Below the pieces are notes generated by a model, which made no database searches, had not been told where the DNA came from, and was given only the letters and a program-made list of their open reading frames with translations. The position numbers and the translations under genes are program-made. Below, in pieces: positions 1,740 through 12,958 of a DNA stretch of 13,082 nt. How positions within the stretch are numbered: position 1 is the stretch's first letter; each line of letters opens with the position of its first letter. This DNA is from Arthrobacter sp. (GTDB taxonomy: Bacteria > Actinomycetota > Actinomycetes > Actinomycetales > Micrococcaceae): positions 1 to 13,082 of the forward strand of contig JAODMS010000004.1 of the NCBI GenBank assembly GCA_025464925.1. Reading direction: 5' to 3'.

Positions 1740-2447
1740 ATTTACACGACAGCAGCCAACGTCTCGGAGCGCCAGCTTGCGCCGCCCTCGCTGGCCATTT
1801 CCACCGTGATCTTCGCGCTCCGCCCAAGCGAGCGCTCCGGACGACCCACCCTCTGGATCCCGCTGGTGCGCCGGATCCGTGAACCGTTCAAGGGCCTGTG
1901 GGCGCTTCCCGGCGGACCGCTGACCCACTCCGAGTCGCTGCAGGATGCCGCATCCCGGAACCTGCGTGAGACCACGGGCCTCGCGCCGAGCTACCTCGAA
2001 CAGCTCTACGCCTTCGGCGGCCTGCACCGCTCGCCAACCCAGCGCGTCGTGTCGATCGTCTACTGGGCGCTGGTCCAGCCCACCGAGGCAGCCCTCGCCG
2101 ACGAATCCGAGAATGTCCGGTGGTTCCGGGCGGACCGGCTCGGGGAGCTGGCCTTCGACCACAACGCGATCATCGACTACGCCCTCTGGCGGCTGCGCAA
2201 CAAGATGGCCTACGGGTCCATCGCGTACCACCTGCTCGGCGAATACTTCACCCTGGCCCAGGTCCGGGAGGTCTACGAGGCGGTCCTGGACCGGGAACTG
2301 GATCCGGCGAACTTCCGCCGCCAGATCATTGCCACGCCCGAGATCGAAGAAACCGACCAGTACCTGCAGGGCGGCAAACACCGGCCGCCCCGCCTTTACC
2401 GCTTTACCGGCCGCCCGGGCCTTGACCCAGACAACAGGAGCACATGA
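1740..2447 (+). CDS. nrtR: NrtR-type Nudix-derived transcriptional regulator of NAD synthesis
   Basis: About 235 residues: an N-terminal Nudix fold followed by a winged-helix DNA-binding domain (roughly residues 158-220, with FTLAQVREVYEAVLDRE). The Nudix box spans about residues 59-81. It keeps the first Gly-x5-Glu but reads RNLRETTGL where catalytic Nudix enzymes have RE-U-x-EE-x-G-U, so key acidic residues are replaced and hydrolysis is unlikely; this fits a ligand-sensing domain as in NrtR, which binds ADP-ribose. It is first in the NAD operon and overlaps nadA by one base. The start is a problem: no ATG, GTG or TTG lies in frame between the stop at 1659 and a GTG at 1806. Starting at 1806 would delete the first beta strand (PSLAISTVIFALR). 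The best compromise is ATT at 1740, preceded by GGGGTGG six bases upstream. Product call good, start weak. Confidence 0.82.
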   Translation: MYTTAANVSERQLAPPSLAISTVIFALRPSERSGRPTLWIPLVRRIREPFKGLWALPGGPLTHSESLQDAASRNLRETTGLAPSYLEQLYAFGGLHRSPTQRVVSIVYWALVQPTEAALADESENVRWFRADRLGELAFDHNAIIDYALWRLRNKMAYGSIAYHLLGEYFTLAQVREVYEAVLDRELDPANFRRQIIATPEIEETDQYLQGGKHRPPRLYRFTGRPGLDPDNRST

Positions 2448-3766
2448 TGAGCAGCGTCAACACAGCCATCCAGCTGATCACCCGCGAGCAGGCCACCCGG
2501 CAGCCGGCGGGCCCGGCGGCTGGCACCGGGGCTACCGCCTGCAGCCCGGCGCTCGCCCGCGGCCCCTGGGACTACGATCTCGCCGAGTCCCTCGCCGGCG
2601 TGCCCGCCTACGGACCCGGCGCCTCCGCCGCCGACGCCGCCCCGGCCTCGACTCCGCGGCAGGGCCAGCTGCCCGAGGAATACAAGCTGGCCAGCGACGC
2701 CGAGCTCGACGCCCGGATCCGGGCCGCGAAAGCCACCCTGGGGGACCGCGCGGTGGTCCTGGGGCACTTCTACCAGCGCGATGAAGTGGTCGAATACGCG
2801 GATTTCGTGGGCGACTCCTTCCAGCTGGCCAACGCCGCCCTGACCCGGCCGGATGCGGAGGCCATCATTTTCTGTGGCGTGCACTTCATGGCCGAGACCG
2901 CGGATATCCTCTCCCGGGCGGACCAGGCCGTGATCCTTCCCAACCTCGCGGCGGGCTGCTCGATGGCGGACATGGCGGACATCGACTCCGTCACCGAATG
3001 CTGGGAACAGCTGGAGGAACTGTTCGGCACGGAGCCGGACGCCGAGGGCCGGGTCCCGGTCATCCCGGTCACCTACATGAACTCCTCCGCCGCCCTGAAG
3101 GGCTTCTGCGGCGAGCGCGGCGGGATTGTCTGCACCTCTTCGAATGCCGCCATGGTGCTGGACTGGGCCTTCGAGCGCGGCCAGCGCGTGCTGTTCTTTC
3201 CGGACCAGCACCTGGGGCGCAACACCGCCAAGGCCATGGGCGTGCCGCTGGAGCAGATGCCGATGTGGAACCCGCGCAAGGACCTCGGCGGCAACGCCGA
3301 ACAGGCCCTGCTCGACTCCCGGGTGATCCTCTGGCATGGCTTCTGCTCCGTGCACAAGCGCTTCAACGTGGGGCAGATCGCAAAGGCCCGCGCCGAGTTC
3401 CCCGGCGTCCAGGTCATTGTGCACCCCGAATGCCCCATGGAGGTGGTGGATGCGGCGGACTCCGCCGGTTCCACTGACTTCATCCGGAAGGCCATTGCCG
3501 CGGCCACCGTACCGACGGCCTTTGCCGTGGGGACGGAGATCAATCTCGTCAACCGCCTCGCCGCCGAGTATCCGCAGCACACCATCTTCTGCCTGGACCC
3601 GGTGATCTGCCCCTGCTCCACGATGTACCGCATCCACCCGGGCTACCTCGCCTGGGTGCTGGAGGCACTCGTCCGCGGCGAGGTGGTCAACCGCATCACC
3701 GTGGAGGACGGCGTCGCGGCTCCGGCCCGGGTGGCCCTGGAACGGATGCTGGCGGCGCGGCCATGA
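2447..3766 (+). CDS. nadA: Quinolinate synthase A
   Basis: Condenses iminoaspartate with dihydroxyacetone phosphate to quinolinate in the cytoplasm, the second step of de novo NAD synthesis, using a 4Fe-4S cluster. The 439 residues comprise a variable Ala/Pro-rich N-terminal extension of about 80 residues, then the triplicated NadA core. Conserved landmarks are VVLGHFYQRDEVVEYADFVGD, FCGVHFMAETADIL, AGCSMADMA (cluster Cys near 171), HPECP (Cys near 329), and ICPCSTMYRI (last cluster Cys near 388-390). Two adjacent ATGs (2444, 2447) are possible; AGGAG at 2436-2440 is better spaced from 2447. It overlaps nrtR by one base (four if 2444 is used) and nadB by four, so translation is probably coupled. 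All three cluster cysteines are present and the frame is intact. Confidence 0.95.
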   Translation: MSSVNTAIQLITREQATRQPAGPAAGTGATACSPALARGPWDYDLAESLAGVPAYGPGASAADAAPASTPRQGQLPEEYKLASDAELDARIRAAKATLGDRAVVLGHFYQRDEVVEYADFVGDSFQLANAALTRPDAEAIIFCGVHFMAETADILSRADQAVILPNLAAGCSMADMADIDSVTECWEQLEELFGTEPDAEGRVPVIPVTYMNSSAALKGFCGERGGIVCTSSNAAMVLDWAFERGQRVLFFPDQHLGRNTAKAMGVPLEQMPMWNPRKDLGGNAEQALLDSRVILWHGFCSVHKRFNVGQIAKARAEFPGVQVIVHPECPMEVVDAADSAGSTDFIRKAIAAATVPTAFAVGTEINLVNRLAAEYPQHTIFCLDPVICPCSTMYRIHPGYLAWVLEALVRGEVVNRITVEDGVAAPARVALERMLAARP

Positions 3767-5472
3767 CCCGGCGGCTGGTGGTGGTGGGCAGCGGGATCGC
3801 CGGACTCTACGCCGCGCTGCTCGCTTCCGACGCGGTTGACACCGCGACGGCCGGCAGGGACGCCGTCGAGGTGGTGCTCCTGACCAAGGGGACCCTCGAA
3901 CAAAGCAATACCTTCTACGCCCAGGGCGGCGTCTCCGCCGTGCTGTCGCCCGGGGAGGCCTTCCCGGGCGATTCCGTGGCGGCGCACATTGCCGACACGC
4001 TGGCGGCGGGCGCCGGGCTGAACGACCCGGAAGCAGTGCGGATCCTGTGCACCGAAGCCCTCCGGGATATCGCCGGACTGCAGCGGTTCGGAGTCCAGTT
4101 CGACGCCGGTCCGGGCAGCGGTCCGGCGCTGGGGCTCGAAGCCGCCCATTCGGCGCCCCGCATCCTGCATGCCGGCGGCGATGCGACCGGTGCCTTGACC
4201 TCCCGCGCCCTCGGTGCCGCCGTCCTCCGGCGGGCAGCCGAGGGAAGGCTCCGGGTGGAGACCGGAGCCTTCGTGACCGAACTGCTGGCCGGGAGCAACA
4301 CTCCGGCGGTCAGCGGCGTCGCCTACCTTGCGGGCGGGGAGCCGAGGCAGCTCGCCGCGGACGCGGTGCTGCTTGCCACCGGGGGCGCCGGGCAGTTGTT
4401 CGCCCGCACCAGCAACCCCACCGTTGCCACCGCCGACGGCCTGGCTCTGGCCTGGCGTGCGGGGGCGGCGGTGCGGGACCTTGAGTTCTTCCAGTTCCAT
4501 CCCACCACCCTGGCCGCGGCCGAGATTCCGGGCGGGCCCCCGGCGCTGCTGATTTCCGAGGCGGTCCGCGGCGAGGGGGCGGTGCTGCTGGACGCCGCCG
4601 GCTACCGCTTTCTGCCGGACTACCACCCGGACGCGGAACTGGCCCCGCGCGACATCGTTTCCCGCAGCATCGCCCTGCATCAGGCCGCCGCGGGAGCTCC
4701 GGCCGACAGCGCCGTCTATCTGGACGCCCGGGGCGTCGAGGCAGCCCGCGGACCGGGCTTCCTCGCGCGGCGTTTCCCCACCATCAGCGCGGCCACCCGT
4801 GCGGCCGGCTAAGACTGGACGGACGAACCGCTCCCCGTGTCCCCGGCCGCCCACTATTGGATGGGCGGCGTGTCCACCGACCTCTGGGGCCGCACCTCCG
4901 TTCCGGGCCTGTACGCCGCCGGCGAGGTCGCGTGCACCGGAGCCCAGGGCGCCAACCGGCTGGCCAGCAACTCGCTCCTGGAAGGGCTCGTGTTCGGCCG
5001 GCGCGCGGTCGAGGCCTTCCTCGGCGGACCGGGGACGAAGCCCGCCCCTGCGGCATCCGCTGCCGGGAGCAGGGACGACCTTCCGATTGCCGAGCCGGGG
5101 GATGCCACAGTTCCGTTCAGCCGGGACGCCCTGCGGCGCCTTCTGACCAGGACCGCGGGTGTGGTGCGCACCGGAGCCGGGCTCGAGGCCGCCGCGGCCC
5201 GGCTCGCGGAATGGGCGGCAGCCGCCCGGGCCGCGGATGCAGGGGCCACCCTCGACCAGGCAACCCACGAGGACCGGAACCTGCTGCTGGCCGCACAGCT
5301 GCTCGTGGCAGCGGCCCGGACGCGGACCGGTTCCGTCGGCGCGCACCACCGCGCCGACGCCCCCGCGTGCCCTGCGGTGCTCGCCGCCCCCGCGCGCACC
5401 ACCTCGTCGGCCGGCAGGACCGGCCACCGTTCTAACTCCGCGCCCCGCCGCCAGCAAAGGATTTCCTCATGA
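3763..5472 (+). pseudogene. nadB: L-aspartate oxidase, interrupted by one in-frame TAA
   Basis: Oxidises L-aspartate to iminoaspartate with FAD, feeding NadA. Read through the stop, it would be 569 codons, a normal NadB length. The first part (349 residues) has the FAD-binding GSGIAGLYAA (residues 9-18), QFHPTTL (His246), EAVRGEG (Arg269) and APRDIVSR (Arg296). Codon 350 is TAA at 4810-4812. The same frame then continues with [19 protein letters not shown] (His364) and [13 protein letters not shown] (Arg399), the helical C-terminal domain and a TGA overlapping nadC by four bases. His364 and Arg399 match E. coli NadB His351 and Arg386, with identical 35-residue spacing. The truncated product would lack these catalytic residues and part of the FAD site. 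No indel or other lesion is seen, so this is a very recent nonsense mutation, a base-call error, or readthrough. A GTG at 4837 could restart translation but has no evident ribosome site. Confidence 0.88.
4810..4812 (+). other. nadB: In-frame TAA stop inside nadB
   Basis: Frame 1 reads Gly (4807-4809), TAA, then Asp-Trp-Thr-Asp-Glu-Pro. In E. coli NadB the aligned stretch is G-I-D-L-T-Q-E-P, so the stop falls on a normally hydrophobic codon at the junction of two domains. Flanking sequence on both sides aligns without a shift. Confidence 0.9.
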
Positions 5473-6443
5473 CAGCATCCGCTGCTACAGCTACAGCTAC
5501 AGCTACAGCCACAGCCACACGCACCGTCGCCGCGGCGCTCGCCGGAACCCTGCCGGCCGCCGCCGTCGAAATCGTGCTGCGCGCCGCCCTCCAGGAAGAC
5601 GCACCGTACGGCGACATCACCTCCCAGACGCTGATCCCGGCTGATGCCGGGGCAACAGCGGTGCTGGCCGCCCGGGTCCCCGGGGTGTTCAGCGGCGGAG
5701 AGGTGTTCGCTGCCGCGATGAAGCTGACCGATCCCGACGCCGCCGTCGACCTCCTCGTTCCGGACGGTACCGCCTTCGCCGCCGGAACACCGCTCGCGAG
5801 GGTGAGGGGGAACGCCCGGGCCGTGCTCCTGGCCGAACGCGTCGCCCTGAACCTGGTCCAGCGGATGAGCGCCATTGCCACGAAGACGGCGGAGTTCGTG
5901 GCCCTCGTGGACGGCACCGGCGCCCGGATCACCGACACACGGAAGACGACACCCGGGCTGCGCGTGCTGGAACGCTACGCCGTCCGCTGCGGCGGCGGCT
6001 CCAACCACCGCTTCGGCCTCTCCGACGCGGTACTCGCCAAGGACAACCATCTGGCAGTCCTCACCGGCGGAGACGCCTCGAAGCTCACGGCGGTCCTGCG
6101 GGATGCCAGGGCGCGGCTGGGCCATACAACGCACTTCGAGGTGGAGGTGGACAGCATGGAGCAGATCGAGCCGGTGCTGGCCGCCGGCGTGGACACCATC
6201 ATGCTGGACAACTTCACCCTGGCGGAGCTCGCCGCCGGTGTGGCACAGGTCGGCGGGCGTGCCCGGGTGGAAGCCAGCGGCAACGTCACTCTGGCCACCG
6301 TGGCCGGCATCGCCGCCACCGGGGTGGACGTCATCTCGATCGGCACGCTCACCCACAGCGTCACCGCCCTGGACCTCGGGCTCGATATTGAACTCGCGAC
6401 TGCCGGCTATACCGGGCACACTGCCGGCCGGGGGCCGTCATGA
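5469..6443 (+). CDS. nadC: Nicotinate-nucleotide pyrophosphorylase (carboxylating)
   Basis: Converts quinolinate and PRPP to nicotinate mononucleotide, CO2 and pyrophosphate, the step where the de novo route joins the common NAD pathway. The 324 residues open with an Ala-Thr repeat tail (residues 6-18) absent from typical NadC, then the QPRTase N-terminal domain (about 28-140; [16 protein letters not shown]) and a TIM-barrel-like C-terminal domain. Recognisable active-site motifs are [17 protein letters not shown] (156-172), [10 protein letters not shown] (175-184), LAKDNH (Lys191), FEVEVDS (Glu224), MLDNF (Asp247) and EASGN (268-272). The start at 5469 overlaps nadB by four bases and is preceded by AAAGGA about seven bases upstream. 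The frame is intact. The upstream nadB stop may reduce its coupled translation. Confidence 0.96.
5484..5519 (+). repeat. Hexanucleotide tandem repeat at the nadC 5' end
   Basis: Six contiguous hexamers, four GCTACA followed by two GCCACA, encode six Ala-Thr pairs. The unit is two codons, so gain or loss of copies would leave the nadC frame intact. The four identical units could slip during replication. It lies in a dispensable-looking N-terminal tail 15 bases into the gene. Confidence 0.9.
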
Positions 6444-7600
6444 TATTCCTGGACGCTGCCGCCACCACCCCGGTCCGCCGCGAGGTGCTTGAGGCCATGT
6501 GGCCGTACCTCACGGGGGAGTTCGGCAATCCCTCGAGCCACCATTCGCTCGGTGATGTGGCCGCCACGGCGCTCGCAGGGGCCCGGACGGCCGCGGCCAC
6601 GGCACTGGGCTGCCGCCCGGGCGAGGTCATCTTCACCTCCGGCGGCACTGAAGCGGACAACCTGGCGGTCAAGGGCATTGCCCTGGCGCGCCGCGCCGCG
6701 GACCCGCGGCTGGACCGGGTGGTGATCAGCGCAGCCGAGCATCCCGCCGTGACGGAATCAGCCCGGTACCTCGAACGGGTCCACGGCTTCGCCGTCGACG
6801 TGGTTCCCGTGGACCCCTACGGCCGCGTCACTGTGGCAGCCCTCGCCGCGGTGCTCCGGCCCGAGACTGCGCTGGTCAGCGTTCTGTACGCCAACAACGA
6901 GGTGGGCACGGTGCAGCCCATCCCGCGGCTGGCTGCACTGGCCCGCGCGCAGGGCACCCCGTTCCATACCGACGCCGTCCAGGCCGCCGGCTGGTTGCCG
7001 CTCGACTCCGCCGCGCTCGGCGTGGATGCGCTGAGCATCTCAGGCCACAAGTTGGGGGCGCCAAAGGGAAACGGCGCCTTGTTCGTGCGGAGCCGGGTCA
7101 AGCTGGAAGCGGTGATCCACGGCGGCGGGCAGGAGCGCGGGCGCCGCTCGGGCACCGAAAACGTCGCCGGAGCTGTGGCGCTTGCCACGGCGCTCACGCT
7201 GGCCAAGGGTTTCCAGCGTGAGCTGGCTGCACGGGTTAGCGCCCTGCGCGATGACTTCATCGGCAGCGTGCTGGCCGGTGTCCCCGGCGCGGTCCTTACC
7301 GGCCACCCCACCGAGCGGCTTCCGTCGGTGGCGTCGTTCTGCTTTCCGGGGACCAGCGGCGAGTCCGTGCTGCTGGAACTCGAGCGCCAGGGAGTTCTCT
7401 GTTCCAGCGGCTCCGCCTGCGCTGCGGGTTCCGACGAGCCGTCCCCGGTGCTGGTCGCCATGGGGATCGACGCCGCAGTCGCGCAGACGGCGGTGCGGTT
7501 CAGCTTCGATTCAACCATCACCGCGGCCGAGCTGCAGGAAGCGGCGGCCGCGGTCCGCACCGCCGTCGGCAGCGTCCGGTCGCTGGGCGCAACTCGCTAG
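6440..7600 (+). CDS. nadS: Cysteine desulfurase of the NAD operon (NadS type)
   Basis: A PLP-dependent class V aminotransferase of 386 residues that removes sulfur from cysteine as an enzyme persulfide. Visible landmarks are LDAAATTP (4-11), SGGTEADNLA (67-76), AAEHPAV (His101), DAVQAAG (Asp178, Gln181), the PLP lysine in SISGHKLGAPKGNG (Lys204), RSGTENVAG and the active-site cysteine in SSGSACAAGSDEPS (Cys327). It looks like the IscS/NifS group. Its place as last gene of the nad operon, overlapping nadC by four bases, fits NadS, which is thought to supply sulfur for the NadA 4Fe-4S cluster. No scaffold gene (iscU/sufU) is next to it. Catalytic residues are all present and the frame is intact. 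A role in tRNA thiolation cannot be excluded. Confidence 0.92.
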   Translation: MIFLDAAATTPVRREVLEAMWPYLTGEFGNPSSHHSLGDVAATALAGARTAAATALGCRPGEVIFTSGGTEADNLAVKGIALARRAADPRLDRVVISAAEHPAVTESARYLERVHGFAVDVVPVDPYGRVTVAALAAVLRPETALVSVLYANNEVGTVQPIPRLAALARAQGTPFHTDAVQAAGWLPLDSAALGVDALSISGHKLGAPKGNGALFVRSRVKLEAVIHGGGQERGRRSGTENVAGAVALATALTLAKGFQRELAARVSALRDDFIGSVLAGVPGAVLTGHPTERLPSVASFCFPGTSGESVLLELERQGVLCSSGSACAAGSDEPSPVLVAMGIDAAVAQTAVRFSFDSTITAAELQEAAAAVRTAVGSVRSLGATR

Positions 7601-9175: not shown

Positions 9176-10003
9176 ATGACTGGGACGGCACTATTCCGCG
9201 GGATCCGGATCGCCACTGCGCTCGCGGTCGCCGCGGCTGCGATTTCCGGCTGCAGCAACGGGGGCGGGACCCCGGCATGGACGGCGGGCGGCAGCCCGAG
9301 CGGAACGGCGACGTCGGACGGTGCCACCGCGGGCGCGACGCCGGGCGCCACTACCGGCGCGACGGCGGAGCCCACGGCCTCCGGCAGTGCATTCGGCAAC
9401 AGGTCCGCCGCTCCCGGCGCGACGGCGTCGGCCTGGAAAGTCTTTACCGATCCCGGGAAGAGCCTGGCTTTCGAGCTGCCGGAGGAGTGGATTGCCCAGT
9501 CCGTGGCTCCGGACCAGGGAACGATGCCCGGGGCGCTCAAGATCGAGGTCAAGGACGGCAAGGGCGGTTACCTGGCCACATTGCAGACCGGACTTCAGCC
9601 GCAGCCCGTTCCGGCCTGTGCCGAGGAAGCCGCCCGGCCTTACGTCGTGGTCAGCAGCGTCCCGGCTGAGCTGCCGCACCGGGGCGGCGAGGGGACCATC
9701 GAGCCCCGGGTGGTGTTCCGCGTGATCCAGGGCTACAAGTACTTCGGCTCCTACGGCATCACCAACATGGTGGGCGGCGCCGGCGGCAAGAGCTGCGCGC
9801 TGCAGAACGTGGTTCGCGGCCCGGAGGGCAAGGGCGACTACTCTTTCGGTGACCTGGCGGCGCTGAAGTCGTTCGCTCCGGACCAGAAGGTAGCCCCGGC
9901 GAAGTCCTTCGACACTCTCGACCAGGCGGCCAAATACGTCAACGAGGGGTCCGAATTCGCCAACGTCCAGCGGATGCTAATGTCTCTGGAGATCAAAGAT
10001 TAG
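9176..10003 (+). CDS. Putative secreted lipoprotein of unknown function
   Basis: A 275-residue protein. A basic N-terminus, a hydrophobic segment (ATALAVAAAAI, about 13-23) and the lipobox ISGC place the lipidated cysteine at residue 26, so the mature protein should be anchored on the outer face of the membrane. Residues 27-85 are a low-complexity Gly/Ala/Thr/Ser/Pro linker with repeated GAT units, as in many actinobacterial cell-wall lipoproteins. The globular part (about 86-275) begins with FTDPGKSLAFELPEEW, reminiscent of small domains found in lipoproteins with a PsbP-like or similar beta fold, though I do not recognise a named family. Two cysteines (PACAEEA and KSCALQ) may form a disulfide. 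The downstream transglutaminase-like gene starts 73 bases later in the same direction. Function unknown. Confidence 0.82.
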   Translation: MTGTALFRGIRIATALAVAAAAISGCSNGGGTPAWTAGGSPSGTATSDGATAGATPGATTGATAEPTASGSAFGNRSAAPGATASAWKVFTDPGKSLAFELPEEWIAQSVAPDQGTMPGALKIEVKDGKGGYLATLQTGLQPQPVPACAEEAARPYVVVSSVPAELPHRGGEGTIEPRVVFRVIQGYKYFGSYGITNMVGGAGGKSCALQNVVRGPEGKGDYSFGDLAALKSFAPDQKVAPAKSFDTLDQAAKYVNEGSEFANVQRMLMSLEIKD

Positions 10004-10913: not shown

Positions 10914-11390
10914 TCAGCGCGACGCCACCGACGCCCGCAGCTTCTCCGTGAGGCGAAGCAGCTCCTGCTGCTCGGCGGCCGTGAGGGCCGGGGTCACGAG
11001 GCTGGCGATGTCGCGGACATGTTCACGGCCGATCTCCTTTTGCAGTTCCCACCCGGCCTCGGTGAGCTGAACCAGGATCCCGCGGCCGTCGTCGGGGGCC
11101 GGTGTCCGCTCCACGAGTCCGCGTTTTTCGAGGCGTTCCACGAGCCGGCTCAGGCTGGACTGGCTCAGCAGCACATGGTCGTTGAGCTCGTTCAGGCGGA
11201 GCCACCCGGACGGACACCGGGAGAGCGTGAAGAGGACGTCGTACTCGTTGACGGCGAGGCGCTTGAATGCGGGGCCCGCCTGCAGCCGACGCATCACAGC
11301 CACCTGGGCGCGGAACAGCGATTCCCAGGTCTCCGCAGCCAGGCGAACGGGCGATTCTGTTGTCTTCGGCGACGTTGACTTCGCGGACAT
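10914..11390 (-). CDS. MarR-family transcriptional regulator
   Basis: A 158-residue winged-helix protein, the normal MarR size. After a short polar N-terminus come a dimerisation helix (WESLFRAQVAVMRRLQ), the helix-turn-helix LRLNELNDHVLLSQSSLSRLVERLEKRGLVER (about residues 65-96) and the wing with the family-typical DDGRGILVQLTEAG (about 100-113), then a C-terminal dimerisation helix. Two adjacent ATGs exist (11393 and 11390); AGGAA is better spaced from 11390, so that start is used. If 11393 is used, the gene overlaps the stop of the upstream monooxygenase gene by four bases. Either way it is the second gene of that operon, so it probably represses it in the absence of a ligand. Ligand unknown. 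Confidence 0.9.
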   Translation of the reverse strand: MSAKSTSPKTTESPVRLAAETWESLFRAQVAVMRRLQAGPAFKRLAVNEYDVLFTLSRCPSGWLRLNELNDHVLLSQSSLSRLVERLEKRGLVERTPAPDDGRGILVQLTEAGWELQKEIGREHVRDIASLVTPALTAAEQQELLRLTEKLRASVASR

Positions 11391-12496
11391 CATGCTTCCT
11401 GGTCGGCGGGCTGGCCGGCTGCCGCCAGGGAGGCTGCGACGCGTCCGGCGTGGGTGGGCGGCTCCGGGAGGTGGGCCGGGGTGAGAGCGGCGTATTCCTT
11501 CCGCAGGACCGGCAGGACCTCCTCGCCGAACAGGTCGAGCTGTTCGAGCACGGTCTTCAGCGGAAGGCCGGCGTGGTCGATCAGGAACAGCTGGCGCTGG
11601 TAGTCCCCGAAGTACTCCCGGAAGGTGAGGGTCTTCTCGATGACTTCCTGCGGGCTGCCGACGGTCAGCGGGGTCTGCGAGGTGAAGTCCTCCAGCGAGG
11701 GGCCGTGGCCGTAGACGGGTGCGTTGTCGAAGTAGGGGCGGAACTCGTTGACCGCGTCCTGGGAGTTTTTCCGCATAAAGAACTGCCCGCCAAGGCCCAC
11801 GATCGCCTGGTCTGCCTTGCCGTGGCCGTAGTGCTCATAGCGTTCGCGGTACAGGCCGATCAGCTGCTGGTAGTGCTCCTTGGGCCAGAAGATGTTATTC
11901 GCGAAGAAGCCGTCACCGTAGTACGCGGCCACCTCCGCGATCTGCGGCGTGCGGATGGAGCCGTGCCAGACGAAGGGGGCGACGCCGTCGAGCGGGCGGG
12001 GCGTAGAGGTGAAGTTCTGCAGCGGAGTCCGATGCTTGCCGGACCAGTTGACCGTGTCCTCGTCCCAGAGCCGGCGCAGCAGGCTGTAGTTCTCGATGGC
12101 AAGCTCGATCCCGTCCTGGATGTTCTTGCCGAACCAGGGGTAGACGGGGGCAGTGTTGCCGCGTCCCAGCACCAGGTCCACGCGGCCGTCCGCCAGGTGC
12201 TGGAGCATCGCGAAGTCCTCGGCGATCTTCACCGGGTCATTGGTGGTGATCAGCGTGGTGGCCGTGGACAGGATGATGCGTTCTGTCTGGGCTGCGATGT
12301 AGGCCAGGGTGGTGGTGGGGGAGGAGGAGAAGAACGGCCGGTTGTGGTGCTCGCCGATGGCATAGACATCCATGCCGATTTCTTCAACCTTCTTGGCGAT
12401 CGCCACGGACGCCTTGATCCGCTCGTGCTCCGTGGGTGTACGGCCCGTGGTGGGGTCGGTGGTGATGTCGCTGACGCTGAAGACGCCGATCTGCAT
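11390..12496 (-). CDS. LLM-class flavin-dependent oxidoreductase (luciferase-like)
   Basis: A 368-residue TIM-barrel monooxygenase of the bacterial luciferase superfamily, using reduced FMN or F420. Visible marks are MQIGVFSVSDI at strand 1, VYAIGEHHNRPFFSSSP (about 42-58), the TATTLITTNDPVKIAEDFAMLQHLADGR segment (about 78-105), the LVLGRGN strand and the conserved WHGS and PLTVGSPQEVIEKTL motifs. It resembles the subgroup called CE1758-like from corynebacteria, which is often paired with an FMN reductase; no reductase gene lies next to it here. ATG 12496 is chosen because GGAAAGG is well placed six bases upstream, and the extended frame back to 12769 looks noncoding. The gene overlaps the MarR gene that follows it. 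Substrate unknown; the subgroup assignment is from memory. Confidence 0.88.
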   Translation of the reverse strand: MQIGVFSVSDITTDPTTGRTPTEHERIKASVAIAKKVEEIGMDVYAIGEHHNRPFFSSSPTTTLAYIAAQTERIILSTATTLITTNDPVKIAEDFAMLQHLADGRVDLVLGRGNTAPVYPWFGKNIQDGIELAIENYSLLRRLWDEDTVNWSGKHRTPLQNFTSTPRPLDGVAPFVWHGSIRTPQIAEVAAYYGDGFFANNIFWPKEHYQQLIGLYRERYEHYGHGKADQAIVGLGGQFFMRKNSQDAVNEFRPYFDNAPVYGHGPSLEDFTSQTPLTVGSPQEVIEKTLTFREYFGDYQRQLFLIDHAGLPLKTVLEQLDLFGEEVLPVLRKEYAALTPAHLPEPPTHAGRVAASLAAAGQPADQEA

Positions 12497-12538
12497 GGGG
12501 TGCCTTTCCGTGGCCGGTCTGATTCGGAAGCTGTTTCC

Positions 12539-12567
12539 ACTGTAGCCGATTTGCATGCATTTGCATG
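12539..12567 (-). promoter_or_regulatory. Monooxygenase promoter with candidate MarR operator
   Basis: ATTTGCATG occurs twice (12549-12557 and 12559-12567), start-to-start 10 bp, so both copies face the same side of the helix. Each contains TGCATG and the pair includes the palindrome TGCATGCA (12552-12559). A possible minus-strand -10, TACAGT (12544-12539), lies just downstream, so the repeats would overlap the -35/spacer region. Binding by the MarR protein encoded by the same operon is inference. Confidence 0.55.
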
Positions 12568-12958
12568 TATCGTGCGGTACAACGCCCGCCGCGGCCAAAT
12601 ATTCCCGGGGCTTTCCCCACAGGGGTACTACACGCCCTCCTGACCGACATCGCCCGGCACCCAGAATCTCCGATGTCGTGGCGGCCGGGTTTTCGAAAGC
12701 AGCCGGGCGCCGCTGGGTCGAGTGGTGCAGCTCCGCCGAACAGGTAGTTAAGTAGCCGCGTACGTTCAAAGTCAGGTAATGGCTACGCGTGAACCCGGGG
12801 AAGGCCGCACATAGAGTATTGACCGTAGGTAGGCAAGAGAAGCTGAGGGCACCCTTGCATATACCGAACCACTTCCCCTCCCGTGACGATTCCGGAAGTT
12901 TGGGCTGTGTCCATTCGTGGAAAAATTCGCCCCTCGCATCAGCAGAAGGAATCTGCTC
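12568..12958. other. Long intergenic leader before the ectB-like gene
   Basis: No convincing gene is present. Structure seen: an inverted repeat CGACATCG/CGATGTCG (12645-12652 and 12671-12678, 18-base loop), GTAGCC/GGCTAC (12752-12757 and 12781-12786), ACTTCC/GGAAGT (12871-12876 and 12894-12899), a TTGACC at 12819-12824 without a matching -10, and a hairpin at the ribosome site. Base composition drops in GC from about 12740 onward, as expected for a promoter region. Confidence 0.5.
12941..12957 (+). promoter_or_regulatory. Hairpin presenting the ectB ribosome binding site in its loop
   Basis: AGCAGA-AGGAA-TCTGCT is a perfect 6-bp stem with a five-base loop, and the loop is the Shine-Dalgarno core. 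The ATG begins two bases after the stem. It could modulate initiation, or be chance; a 6-bp stem is modest. Confidence 0.5.

Follow-up and report, generated by a model that had tools for sequence, protein, structure and literature searches.

A lone in-frame TAA in nadB, private to one contig, probably reflects a base error or a very recent loss in a single strain

The L-aspartate oxidase gene nadB of this NAD operon is interrupted by a single TAA at codon 350, and the stop is private to the contig among the homologues, loci and genus genomes compared, a near-identical copy included. Because it is private, the interrupted nadB is neither a case of translational recoding nor a conserved split gene, and it is probably the product of a wrong base or of a very recent loss in one strain rather than a new biological feature. 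The TAA is read here as a one-off single-base difference, and a wrong consensus base is, by a narrow margin, its most probable source, with a probability of about 0.5. We infer that the fault lies in the base and not in the organism, whose living gene would in that case encode an ordinary, intact NadB. The first-pass annotation of this DNA had named the same pair of options, decay that has just begun or an erroneous base, and both survive the comparison, in which the stop occurs in this contig alone.

The window, i.e., the whole stretch of DNA analyzed, is a contig of 13,082 bases, placed in Arthrobacter by its relatives, that carries the gene run nrtR-nadA-nadB-nadC-nifS. The features discussed below are as follows.

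1806..2447, plus strand: NrtR-like regulator of the Nudix/winged-helix type, at the head of the run (Pfam NUDIX and NrtR_WHD, over cut-off)
2444..3766, plus strand: nadA, quinolinate synthase (NF006884, 827 bits, over cut-off)
3763..4812, plus strand: nadB as written, which stops at the TAA and gives a truncated product of 349 residues (translation, profile match)
4810..4812, plus strand: in-frame TAA, codon 350, aligning with E. coli NadB residue 337 (translation, 1chu alignment)
4813..5472, plus strand: remaining nadB frame, codons 351–569 and TGA, with His364 and Arg399 (translation, profiles, alignment)
5469..6443, plus strand: nadC, carboxylating nicotinate-nucleotide diphosphorylase (TIGR00078, 292 bits, over cut-off)
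6440..7600, plus strand: NifS-like cysteine desulfurase, last gene of the run (TIGR03402, 412 bits, under the 530.75 cut-off)

The NrtR-like product is 96–99% identical to its counterparts in four relatives from genus genomes (L131–L134) and scores 120 bits against NCBIfam NF050029, under the 400-bit cut-off of that model. All four junctions of the run in the window (nrtR/nadA, nadA/nadB, nadB/nadC and nadC/nifS) are ATGA overlaps, and the description of an otherwise intact NAD operon with 4-base overlaps was thus accurate. In the relatives, the overlap is found at the nrtR/nadA and nadA/nadB junctions of all four, at nadB/nadC in three and at nadC/nifS in one. Judged by where the hits fall, genes follow one another in the same order from lrp to a luciferase-like monooxygenase gene in all of these relatives, with mdmpi lacking a match in L133. 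Across the 13 complete genes of the window (3,937 sense codons, nadB included), no internal stop was found outside nadB; a second stop in the tally was the terminal stop of mdmpi itself, and the gene cut by the window start was left out of the count. Close to the NadC start, six copies of GCTACA at 5484–5519 encode an Ala-Thr run that may vary in length; the alignments of the four relatives start between NadC residues 15 and 41.

Translation of positions 3763–5472 gives a nadB frame of 569 codons that opens with ATG at 3763 and closes with TGA at 5470–5472. The TAA at 4810–4812 is the sole stop within it, and codons 351–569 contain no second one, as the first-pass annotation had reported. The L-aspartate oxidase profile PRK07804 is matched along the protein by two successive halves rather than by one continuous reading frame: residues 5–349 cover profile positions 21–343 and the piece translated from 4837 covers positions 354–520. 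Scanned separately, the halves score 309 and 158 bits, each under the curated cut-off of 639. The frame aligns over residues 6–535 with E. coli NadB (PDB 1chu/1knp; Pfam FAD_binding_2 and Succ_DH_flav_C), and it shares with the E. coli enzyme both His364 and Arg399, at the positions of His351 and Arg386, which we take to be active-site residues. This equivalence, also claimed at first pass, was recovered by the 1chu alignment, in which codon 350 corresponds to residue 337 (correspondences counted by hand from the printed alignment). The window further resembles known NadB loci in that nadA and nadC adjoin the gene; it differs from E. coli NadB in the single TAA that breaks the frame.

By homology, the stop would fall just before the chain leaves the capping domain and re-enters the FAD domain. 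In the homologous fumarate reductase FrdA, the capping domain spans residues 233–351, and His355 and Arg390 are substrate-contacting residues of the flavin domain, according to the FrdA study (PMC5773532). On this basis, the 349-residue product is predicted to lack the last part of the capping domain, the resumed FAD-domain segment with His364 and Arg399, and the C-terminal domain. The truncated product is represented by a single entry in the protein database (P0122).

Alignment of nadB from relatives, one of the checks proposed together with the first-pass annotation, revealed a sense residue in column 350 of all 120 homologues, identical in 115 of them, and a sense codon at this position in each of 110 loci (L001–L110, which are not all separate genomes; G001, for instance, contains both L001 and L110). 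A stop retained at the same place in relatives, the mark of translational recoding, was therefore absent from all 120 homologues and all 110 loci. The window's own product is the only truncated one among the 120 proteins listed, the other 119 having at least 500 residues. The protein closest to the read-through frame, P0002 (“MAG: nadB [Arthrobacter sp.]”), is intact, has 569 residues and is encoded on a contig of 12,498 bases. Compared at the protein level, P0002 and the window disagree at 4 of 569 positions, namely residues 29, 298, 350 (the stop) and 496. Residues 29 and 496 fall in columns that vary among homologues; at residue 298, a near-invariant column, the window carries a conservative substitution relative to 118 of 119 other homologues, which fits base error and relaxed selection equally.

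At the level of the genus to which G001 belongs, codon 350 lies within an open frame in 199 of 206 genomes; this figure comprises 150 of 150 listed rows, 45 of 45 further genomes and four genomes (G043, G180, G103 and G105) found open on re-reading. Five of the 150 rows carry stops, and re-reading placed them at residues 553–563 in two loci and found none up to residues 532–543 in the other three rows. The last 11 genomes, the lowest-scoring of the 206, were re-examined: besides the four open ones, four have broken nadB frames (G042, G089, G081 and G087) and the remaining three give a fragmentary match or none (the G120 match ends in a fragment, G157 shows nothing but a fragment and a distant relative, and G156 has no match). 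No other nadB interrupted by nonsense alone was found among the 206 genus genomes.

The substitution pattern of nadB shows no clear relaxation. Compared pairwise with the four relatives, dN/dS is 0.15–0.18 for codons 1–349 and 0.21–0.26 for codons 351–535, alongside 0.145–0.190 for nadC, 0.125–0.151 for nifS, 0.06–0.10 for nadA and 0.02–0.06 for nrtR; the post-stop value is the highest of the run, and, being pairwise over long branches, it is not assignable to the lineage of the window. In columns conserved at 99% or more, deviations number 1 of 242 for the window and 1 of 243 for P0002, and the 119 other homologues have 0–4 (median 1). With no other break in nadB and dN/dS well below 1, the further damage or relaxed selection expected of a pseudogene is not seen; a null may be too recent for such signs to have appeared.

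The four broken frames elsewhere in the genus fall into two groups. In G042, G089 and G081 (L140, L142 and L143), the damage extends to nadA and the niacin salvage gene, together with nrtR in G042 or nifS in G089 and G081, and because these other genes are also damaged the three look like error-rich assemblies. Automatic annotation would label such broken genes pseudogenes. The nadB break of G042 lies at residues 353–355, near the stop of the window; since other genes of G042 are broken too, we regard this proximity as coincidence rather than as a shared event. The fourth genome, G087 (L141, G087:C1:1010500-1023500), has frame changes in both nadA (about 4140–5454) and nadB (about 5516–7312) and a stop in nadA, but no stop at codon 350 of nadB. 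Its nrtR, lrp, nifS, gtrA and duf1684 are open and its niacin salvage gene is intact; an aspartate dehydrogenase domain was not found in this genome. One stop also lies in the nadC match (residue 314 of 324) and one in the match to the hypothetical gene at 9176. G087 may represent a real loss of the de novo NAD pathway (nadA and nadB), and local assembly error is possible there too. The broken pair resembles the window in operon, genus, open neighbours and the presence of the salvage enzyme; it differs in having frame changes in two genes and a nadA stop, as opposed to a lone TAA at codon 350. G087 implies that not every nad break in the genus can be called error, and it therefore lowered our probability for a base error in the window from 0.55 to 0.50 and raised that of a real null by the same step.

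The weighting of error against null is a judgement. A wrong consensus base is favored by the intact, near-identical P0002, by the sense codon in all homologues and loci compared, by the dN/dS values, by the 199 of 206 genus genomes that are open and by the absence of damage in any other complete gene of the window. Against it, the contig is not error-dense, with no further internal stop in 3,937 codons, and a single error that happens to make a stop is improbable because only 2.4% of the possible substitutions in the window's genes do so; G087, with nadA and nadB broken and most neighbours open, also speaks against error as a general account. A nonsense nadB is likewise improbable a priori, given the same 199 open genomes. 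We nevertheless place a real, very recent, strain-level null, with NAD drawn from niacin salvage, just short of even odds. The stop is clean and stands in a contig with no other complete gene broken, the nadB/nadC overlap recurs in three of four relatives, and G087 appears to have lost nadA and nadB independently while retaining salvage. Such a null would be survivable, as each of the 61 sampled genus genomes has a putative nicotinate phosphoribosyltransferase, and so do the 3 closer ones tried; nadA or nadB nulls with a niacin requirement are known elsewhere, according to PMC8207962. What tells against it is the lack of any other nonsense-only nadB among the 206 genus genomes, 199 of them open across codon 350, the intact sister copy P0002, and the nature of the G087 precedent, which consists of frame changes plus a nadA stop rather than one stop and may itself be an assembly error.

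Very improbable, in comparison, is a stop that is real and leaves NadB activity in place, whether by read-through or by two peptides rebuilding a discontinuous FAD domain; both routes had been raised at first pass, and neither gained support. Read-through or reassignment of the TAA would yield full-length NadB and would agree with a frame conserved on either side of the stop and with pairwise dN/dS well below 1, but a recent origin by itself accounts for the conserved frame. No relative compared has a stop at codon 350, no other complete gene of the window has an internal one, and the base after the TAA is G; we consider this route extremely unlikely. The most improbable of the readings is that NadB is made as two assembling peptides, the second starting at GTG 4837. 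This codon lies 24 bases past the TAA and would leave His364 and Arg399 on the second peptide, and its best anti-Shine-Dalgarno duplex (-5.5 kcal/mol) is comparable in strength to those of nadB (-4.8) and nadC (-5.6). However, the match lies 14–22 bases upstream, an unusual distance next to 7–15 for nadB and nadC, 5–13 for nifS and 3–11 for nadA. The GTG also encodes a Val that all 120 homologues share, so no start function is needed to explain it; the stop is unshared, and the break would, judging from homology, split the discontinuous FAD domain.

If the stop is real, de novo NAD synthesis would halt at aspartate oxidation, without iminoaspartate. Because the nadC start overlaps the normal nadB stop, about 660 bases would remain untranslated ahead of nadC, which could uncouple the translation of nadC and nifS (polarity). 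Niacin salvage is the likelier bypass, since the putative nicotinate phosphoribosyltransferase (TIGR01513) was detected in all 61 sampled genus genomes, over the cut-off in 60, and the aspartate dehydrogenase domain (PF01958) in 6 of 61; these counts describe other genomes of the genus, not the strain of the window. TIGR01513 was preferred as the test for salvage over the Pfam NAPRTase model, which matched 35 of the 61 genomes, most near its cut-off. An aspartate dehydrogenase bypass, also suggested at first pass, is accordingly possible and would be uncommon for the genus.

The kind of event at issue, a nad-gene null causing niacin auxotrophy, is already known, since niacin auxotrophy in several species arises mostly from mutations in nadA and nadB, as stated in PMC8207962. 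If the stop is real, the window would be of the same kind as the Shigella and E. coli NC101 niacin auxotrophs described there, with a de novo NAD gene altered and a dependence on salvage. NC101 carries a missense change in nadA, as opposed to a stop in nadB, and the bacterium of the window is, judging by its relatives, an environmental actinobacterium known from assembled sequence alone. A real stop would mean that a soil bacterium is beginning to abandon de novo NAD synthesis, a pathway nearly universal in the genus (open here in 199 of 206 genomes); G087 might then show a more advanced stage of such a loss. If the stop is an error, the case illustrates that a lone stop in one contig needs checking against the sister assembly before auxotrophy is inferred.

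Two further genes of the window deserve mention. The luciferase-like monooxygenase ORF (11390–12769, minus strand) carries about 90 codons upstream of its family match (residues 92–446), and its true start may be internal, although the alignments of relatives start at residues 30–85. The product of the gene at 9176–10003, 275 residues long, matched no Pfam family at E 0.001, and it is present in all four relatives at 68–78% identity.
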